Source of the DNA: Candidatus Gastranaerophilales bacterium | GTDB taxonomy: Bacteria; Cyanobacteriota; Vampirovibrionia; Gastranaerophilales; Gastranaerophilaceae | Direction of reading: 5' to 3' | Length of the DNA: 64,000 nt | Assembly (NCBI GenBank): GCA_944325885.1 | Contig: CALVBT010000007.1 | Span: 1-64,000, forward strand | In this document: one piece after another, positions 3,194-58,734 of the stretch | How positions within the stretch are numbered: the first letter of the stretch is position 1 | Layout of the letters: each line of letters begins with the position of its first letter | Made by a program: the position numbers and the translations under genes | The notes under the pieces: generated by a model | What the model saw: the letters and a program-made list of their open reading frames with translations, nothing else | Told to the model about the DNA's origin: nothing | Database searches by the model: none

Positions 3194-3224
3194 GGGCGGG
3201 AGATTTTCTCCCGCTTGTTTTTAT
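3194..3224 (+). terminator. Rho-independent terminator after the capsid gene
   Basis: Perfect stem gcgggaga / tctcccgc at 3196-3214 with a TTT-T loop, followed by a T-rich tail. A near-copy of the same hairpin occurs at 3450-3476, so the two bracket the family-2 repeat lying between them. Confidence 0.75.
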
Positions 3225-3241: not shown

Positions 3242-3406
3242 AGATAATTGTTAAAAAAAGACCTTTGCATAGTGAATTACAGAATGTTACTTGAACAACA
3301 GCAAGCGAGGTGTGTTTGAGGCTGTTGTACAGCCGAGTTGCCGAGCATTAAGTGAAAGTTATATTCTGTTTGAACGACGCAACAGGTCGGCTTTTAATAA
3401 TTATCT
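3242..3406 (-). repeat. Family-2 structured repeat, copy R (inverted, diverged)
   Basis: On the minus strand the core reads like copies P and Q: an aactcggctgt...acagcctcaaacac core, then pieces matching the Q/P right half down to the aaaggtc end. Its outer arms, agataattgttaaaa on one side and ttttaataattatct on the other, pair with each other, yet differ in sequence from the arms of P and Q. Confidence 0.7.
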
Positions 3407-3449: not shown

Positions 3450-3476
3450 GCAGGAGATTTTCTCCCGCTTATTTTT
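3450..3476 (+). terminator. Second copy of the gcgggagattttctcccgc hairpin
   Basis: Same hairpin as at 3196-3214 with one mismatch in the stem, followed by ttattttt. It lies just ahead of the connector gene at 3497. Either a duplicated terminator, or the right flank left by insertion of the family-2 element. Confidence 0.6.
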
Positions 3477-6450: not shown

Positions 6451-6618
6451 TAACGAAATCTAATTTTAAAACCTGATACTTCGCTTTTACATAAACTAAT
6501 CTCAACTTAAGGCTCGCAACTCGGCTGTTACACAGCCTCAGACACACTCGCCTTGTAATTGTTTCGATAAGTTTCTGTAAAAAAGCTACGTAAAAGGTTT
6601 TTAAATAAAATTTCGTTA
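6451..6618 (+). repeat. Family-2 structured repeat, copy P
   Basis: Outer arms taacgaaat...aattttaaaacc (left) and ggtttttaaataaaatttcg plus tta (right) are reverse complements over about 23 bases with few mismatches. The core, containing ggctcgcaactcggctgtta then cacagcctcagacacactcg, is nearly identical to copy Q at 58542. An inner hairpin ggctgt/acagcc is at the tip. It lies between the phosphoesterase and the next phage gene. The 6369-6679 gap holds this element and nothing else that I recognise. Confidence 0.85.
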
Positions 6619-58487: not shown

Positions 58488-58541
58488 ACACTTATATTAG
58501 CGAAATATCGCTAAAAACAAAAGTGCTTATACAATATATAA

Positions 58542-58713
58542 TACAAAGATATTTTATTTCTCAACCTGATACTGCGCTTTTACATCAACTAATCTCAACT
58601 TCAGGCTCGCAACTCGGCTGTTTACACAGCCTCAGACACACTCGCCTTGTAGTTGTTTTGATAAGTTGCTGTAAAAAAGCTGCGTAAAAGGTTTCTAAAT
58701 AAAATATCTTTGT
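58542..58713 (+). repeat. Family-2 structured repeat, copy Q
   Basis: Perfect 18-base outer arms tacaaagatattttattt / aaataaaatatctttgta, then the core shared with copy P (ggctcgcaactcggctgt, cacagcctcagacacactcg). The core is about 90% identical to P by eye, but the arms are different sequences. Located between anmK and glmU, both leftward. Confidence 0.85.
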
Positions 58714-58734
58714 ATCTTTTTTATTTTTTATTTA

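Follow-up and report, generated by a model that had tools for sequence, protein, structure and literature searches.

Hairpin elements P, Q and R

Three hairpin elements, here called P, Q and R, occur in the window, a 64,000-nucleotide stretch of a contig from Candidatus Gastranaerophilales bacterium. Copy P (6451..6618, forward strand) is an A-type element with arms at 6451-6467 and 6603-6618 and a body at 6470-6600. Its tip hairpin (6518..6539, forward strand) includes the start of the conserved loop strands AACTC and CTC. Copy Q (58541..58715, forward strand) is also A-type. The arms of Q (58541-58559 and 58697-58715) pair at 19 of 19 positions, its tip hairpin is at 58611..58633 on the same strand, and its body is 94% identical to that of P. 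Copy R (3242..3406, reverse strand) is an R-type element with arms at 3242-3256 and 3392-3406 and a tip hairpin at 3318..3339, likewise on the reverse strand. According to a check of neighbouring genes against Pfam, Q is flanked by a glmU-like gene and anmK, and R is located 3' of a phage-capsid-family gene. With this gene upstream and a DnaT-like gene downstream, R may reside in a prophage. A terminator-like hairpin, AAGCGGGAGAAAATCTCC, occurs on either side of R as direct copies, at window positions 3199-3216 and 3453-3470.

The copies lie where a sequence-only reading of the window had placed them, and the core that this reading proposed for all three is real: AACTCGGCTGT..ACAGCCTC has 8 exact matches genome-wide, and the reversed control has 0. 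Pairing of each arm with its own partner is also borne out, in that composition shuffles reach the observed score in 0 of 5000 trials for Q, 1 of 5000 for R and 39 of 5000 for P. The further proposal that these are three independent arm pairs fares less well. The arm of R, AGATAATTNTTAAAANNNGACCT, also forms the ends of the R/R' subfamily, with over 30 occurrences across the genome, and because its arms are common to that subfamily, R does not rank with P and Q as an independent pair. By eye, the arms of P look like a diverged variant of GAAATTTAATTTTT, the arm common among A-type copies. In the wider family, independent arm pairs are plentiful.

A family of repeats with a conserved body

P, Q and R are members of a family of long imperfect-hairpin repeats of about 165-265 nt that are non-coding and apparently non-autonomous; no gene was noticed inside the hairpin unit on informal inspection. 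When the body is used as a query against its own genome (2.17 Mb), 41 matching pieces are detected at E up to 10, corresponding to about 20 A-type copies spread over many contigs. The same genome holds at least a dozen R-type copies, and the R end motif, with its more than 30 occurrences, marks a second subfamily whose members are mostly about 209 bp. With a covariance model, roughly 170 matches are obtained, spread over 21 of 23 genomes of this gut-bacterial genus (Candidatus Gastranaerophilales). Searches of viral contigs with three core patterns returned no copies. Rfam 15 gives no match at gathering score in the window, and the Rfam matches obtained at E up to 5 for eight loci are all below gathering score, lie in a flank of L028 and include none on the element body.

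The whole unit is predicted to fold as one long imperfect hairpin. Common to the copies is an asymmetric internal loop, AACTC / CTCRRACA, which is set between variable helices. Among thirteen diverse copies, the tip helix covaries and the two loop strands are nearly fixed, and B- and R-type copies follow the same plan with different helices. In all types seen, the internal loops are non-complementary, and therefore have not been levelled out by whatever perfects the arms. Since the core loops remain unpaired, recognition or selection probably acts there.

Outer arms of individual copies

Within genome G009, cores are 90-96% identical, yet their arms look unrelated. Perfect arm pairs of the family measure 31, 29, 29, 29, 27, 25 and 24 bp, and many G009 pairs are perfect over 24-31 bp. 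Slow compensatory substitution hardly suffices to produce unrelated perfect arms on cores that similar. Clustering at 80% identity divides the arms of 32 A-type copies into 17 clusters, of which one cluster of ten still looks over-merged; a threshold of 65% merged unrelated AT-rich arms. In 14 of the 17 clusters, no more than about 1% of swapped pairings (mean 5.0, standard deviation 1.25) score as high as the best member. Certain arms recur in several copies; an arm can hence move together with the body. Unpaired changes are also present in some copies (in G007 and G011).

Orthologous sites

Sites shared between species were found by comparing flanks. The names sctV, umuDC, ppiC, pepP and radical-SAM come from reading the translations, the Pfam check having covered the neighbours in the window. 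At three orthologous sites (sctV, radical-SAM and ppiC/pepP-like), elements have opposite orientations in different species, which independent insertion would also fit. The arms at the ppiC/pepP-like site are CATAGTT/AACTATG in G001 and G007, versus CATTGTT/AACAATG in G015, and comparison of G001 with G015 by hand reveals a paired A:T to T:A change. Hand reading of recA likewise shows a paired change, G:C to T:A, between G011 and G001; from the related copy L188, the G011 copy is separated by this change and two more paired ones, in all two transversions and one transition. Unpaired changes are present as well in these recA comparisons (G011, G001 and L188). Homogenisation of arms at orthologous sites is thus seen at the recA and ppiC/pepP-like sites, in few events. 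Pooled paired changes comprise 39 transversions and 16 transitions, but many of the pooled arm pairs are AT-rich chance resemblances, and we therefore place weight on the hand-checked sites only. The shared sites could also be insertion hotspots that were hit independently in each species; flips and differing arms would then arise without switching in situ.

Template switching as the favoured explanation

On balance, and with moderate confidence, we explain the family as mobile hairpins with a recognised body, whose outer arms are made and re-homogenised by template-switch copying. For mobility, recognition would fall on the conserved body, with its imperfect hairpin and fixed internal loops. 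While folded on this hairpin, a nascent strand would switch template and copy the flank of one side onto the other, so that an inverted copy of 17-31 bp surrounds the element. Such switching would later re-homogenise the arms and could invert the body. The agent, we infer, is template switching, acting at insertion or afterwards.

Switching of template between inverted repeats is reported to homogenise arms and to invert the spacer, and published bacterial data indicate that transversions are favoured in the process (PMC8604942). Because arm homogenisation together with spacer inversion is this published signature, we prefer copying to stepwise compensatory selection. The sequence-only reading had allowed that pairing itself is maintained or that one arm is copied from the other. 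Copying is the better supported of the two, given unrelated perfect arms on 90-96% identical cores, flips, and concerted changes that include paired transversions. The arms can be accounted for without selection for pairing, and unpaired changes are present in some copies; a strand bias, described below, leaves room for selection at the RNA level. Among the points that count against copying, single mismatches on the forward strand lean towards A.C over G.T (12:4 distinct contexts, p=0.08), which a symmetric process would not give.

A more specific and tentative proposal, which we think rather unlikely, is that a single strand is joined to the target at one end, and that the other, free end loops back on the hairpin and serves as primer for a copy of the target flank, giving an inverted target duplication. 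To our knowledge, insertion with an inverted rather than a direct target duplication is a mode of mobility known from no catalogued bacterial element.

Unoccupied sites and pre-existing palindromes

Alternatively, insertion might strike the middle of palindromes or terminators already present, such that the arms are target sequence evolving under its own constraint. The radical-SAM site in G011, from which the element is absent, has a 34-bp perfect palindrome; it is identical to the outermost 17 bp of the two G001 arms, fused at a repeat of 10 bp. We take this palindrome to result from a deletion between ATTTATAAAT repeats, though a target palindrome would fit too. As for a direct target-site duplication, the G001/G011 comparison alone shows a 10-bp repeat, and two readings fit it. 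Insertion into existing palindromes would have a precedent in the SMR-A elements of Haloquadratum (PMC3119063), and in many species the recA site carries a terminator-like hairpin of variable sequence.

Other sites argue against this alternative, which we regard as a serious but improbable one. In 17 of 23 genomes, no element is found between sctV and sctN; stop and start are mostly a short distance apart there, and by eye most of these unoccupied junctions have no palindrome. The element or a remnant of it is present in the remaining 6 of 23, in both orientations, and 4 of these 6 form one supported clade. At umuDC, a separate hairpin is retained in several empty species; in G009 the element is beside such a hairpin, not in it, and its 27-bp arm pair is in none of the other species shown. 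The element at L330 is likewise beside a terminator, placed between a stop codon and the intact terminator. Association with a pre-existing palindrome or insertion into one, a trait of PATEs and SMR-A, is not seen at sctV or umuDC and is possible at the radical-SAM site in G011. Arms can also overlap coding ends, as at L329 and L339, where the arm includes the last codons of a gene. Background palindromes of such length are very rare: the window contains only two perfect stems of at least 13 bp with a loop of up to 8, and none of at least 16, which makes native palindromes of 24-31 bp implausible as targets.

The sequence-only reading had also considered that the arms might prove to be a terminator shared with empty sites. 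This is largely rejected by the sctV, umuDC and L330 sites, where the arms do not correspond to a terminator of the upstream gene at empty sites, and by recA in G009, where one arm overlaps with an intact terminator, in its 3' half and T-tract, and the second arm is the inverted copy of the first. The radical-SAM site in G011 is ambiguous in this respect, as is recA in three species; in G001, G007 and G011, the recA arms resemble a terminator stem, with no other terminator ahead of them. For the empty sites of L330 and of glmU (copy Q), divergence between species is too high to tell which arm is native, and in the few readable cases the native arm has no fixed side.

RNA-level and transposon-like alternatives

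Another explanation is that the hairpin functions as an RNA from the reverse-complement strand, with pairing kept by compensatory mutation under selection. A role for this RNA is possible because one strand folds better: the reverse complement is more stable in 109 of 113 copies, which share descent, by a mean of 9.2 kcal/mol. Single mismatches are mostly A.C on the forward strand, equivalent to G.U on the other strand (30:5 contexts, not independent), and the pairs of the tip helix covary. As an account of the arms, however, we find RNA function quite unlikely. Arms change wholesale while cores remain at least 90% identical, and paired changes are mostly transversions, though homology of many of the arm pairs is not demonstrable. 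Also, orientation relative to genes flips, and pairing is lost in some copies. Ordinary MITE-like transposons, whose fixed terminal inverted repeats would simply have drifted apart, would suit non-coding, multi-copy repeats with inverted ends and some near-identical copies, but are highly improbable here, since the outer ends differ between copies within one subfamily, one core family carries 17 arm clusters, and no constant terminal sequence was found.

Comparison with known systems

The elements resemble the products of quasipalindrome template switching in their arm homogenisation, spacer inversion and paired transversions. However, the inverted spacers reported for that system are a few bases long and its repeats are incidental (PMC8604942). 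In the present family, a conserved element of about 130-190 nt takes the place of the spacer; it recurs throughout the genome, and many copies bear new arms. PATEs and SMR-A of Haloquadratum are similar in being small, transposase-free repeats linked to palindromes, and the mobiliser of these SMRs is unknown (PMC3119063). PATEs have near-terminal palindromes and are without terminal inverted repeats; the highly conserved SMR-A elements do have such repeats, and existing palindromes are their insertion sites (PMC3119063). Unlike either, the family described here has arms that differ per copy and mostly did not pre-exist. Mitochondrial repetitive hairpin-forming and double-hairpin elements are also mobile-looking hairpins that lack coding capacity and whose mechanism is unknown, but in the sponge mitochondrial hairpins the stems are reported to be conserved and the loops to vary (PMC2800124), while in our elements inner loops are conserved and outer stems vary.

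REP/BIME elements with RAYT transposases are likewise extragenic hairpin repeats in many copies, although the present elements are much longer. A Y1 (IS200-type) transposase (PF01797) was not found in the element's own genome (G000, 97% complete) or in 14 others of the 23, and was rejected as the mobiliser for its absence from the former. Integron attC sites were dropped as candidates after inspection of the ends of Q by eye, where the boxes RYYYAAC and GTTRRRY were not seen. Proteins neighbouring recA, considered as a repeated transposase, were rejected because they are the recA locus itself.

If arms are indeed produced by template switching, these repeats would form a natural record of that process in bacteria, in which one recurrent hairpin bears many independent arm pairs and is found at several orthologous sites. 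Tract length, polarity and rate of template switching would then be measurable from them. Compensated changes in arms, commonly read as proof of an RNA structure, could come from copying alone. The repeats may also expose a way of moving in which the target is duplicated in inverted orientation.

Inserts and neighbouring repeats

The hairpin tip is extended by about 43 bp of shared inserted sequence in eight A-type copies, and a ninth has a diverged form of it. The R'-type copy at L075 has a further long hairpin-like insert in its loop. Hairpin tips seem to gather additional inserts. A third hairpin repeat, AAGAGGTGTAAGATG...TCTTATACCTCTT, is found at L087 and L095 and in the right flanks of several A-type copies in L009-L014. 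It adjoins or separates half-copies of A- and R-type arms, resulting in mosaic arrays. A fourth repeat, with AGTCGGAGTCAGTTGACTATATGAAAT and GTGACCCC...TGCACTTGTTGCCTGTGC, occurs near elements in several species (L006-L008 and the flanks in G004 and G011).

Other hairpins occupy some of the same intergenic regions. At the umuDC junction (L303-L320), a hairpin of the type AAAGCGGAG...CTCCGCTTT is present between umuD-like and umuC-like genes in many species, and is a possible attenuator or terminator. Immediately 3' of recA, several species have a terminator-like hairpin whose stem sequence is mostly different from one to another (L367-L389).
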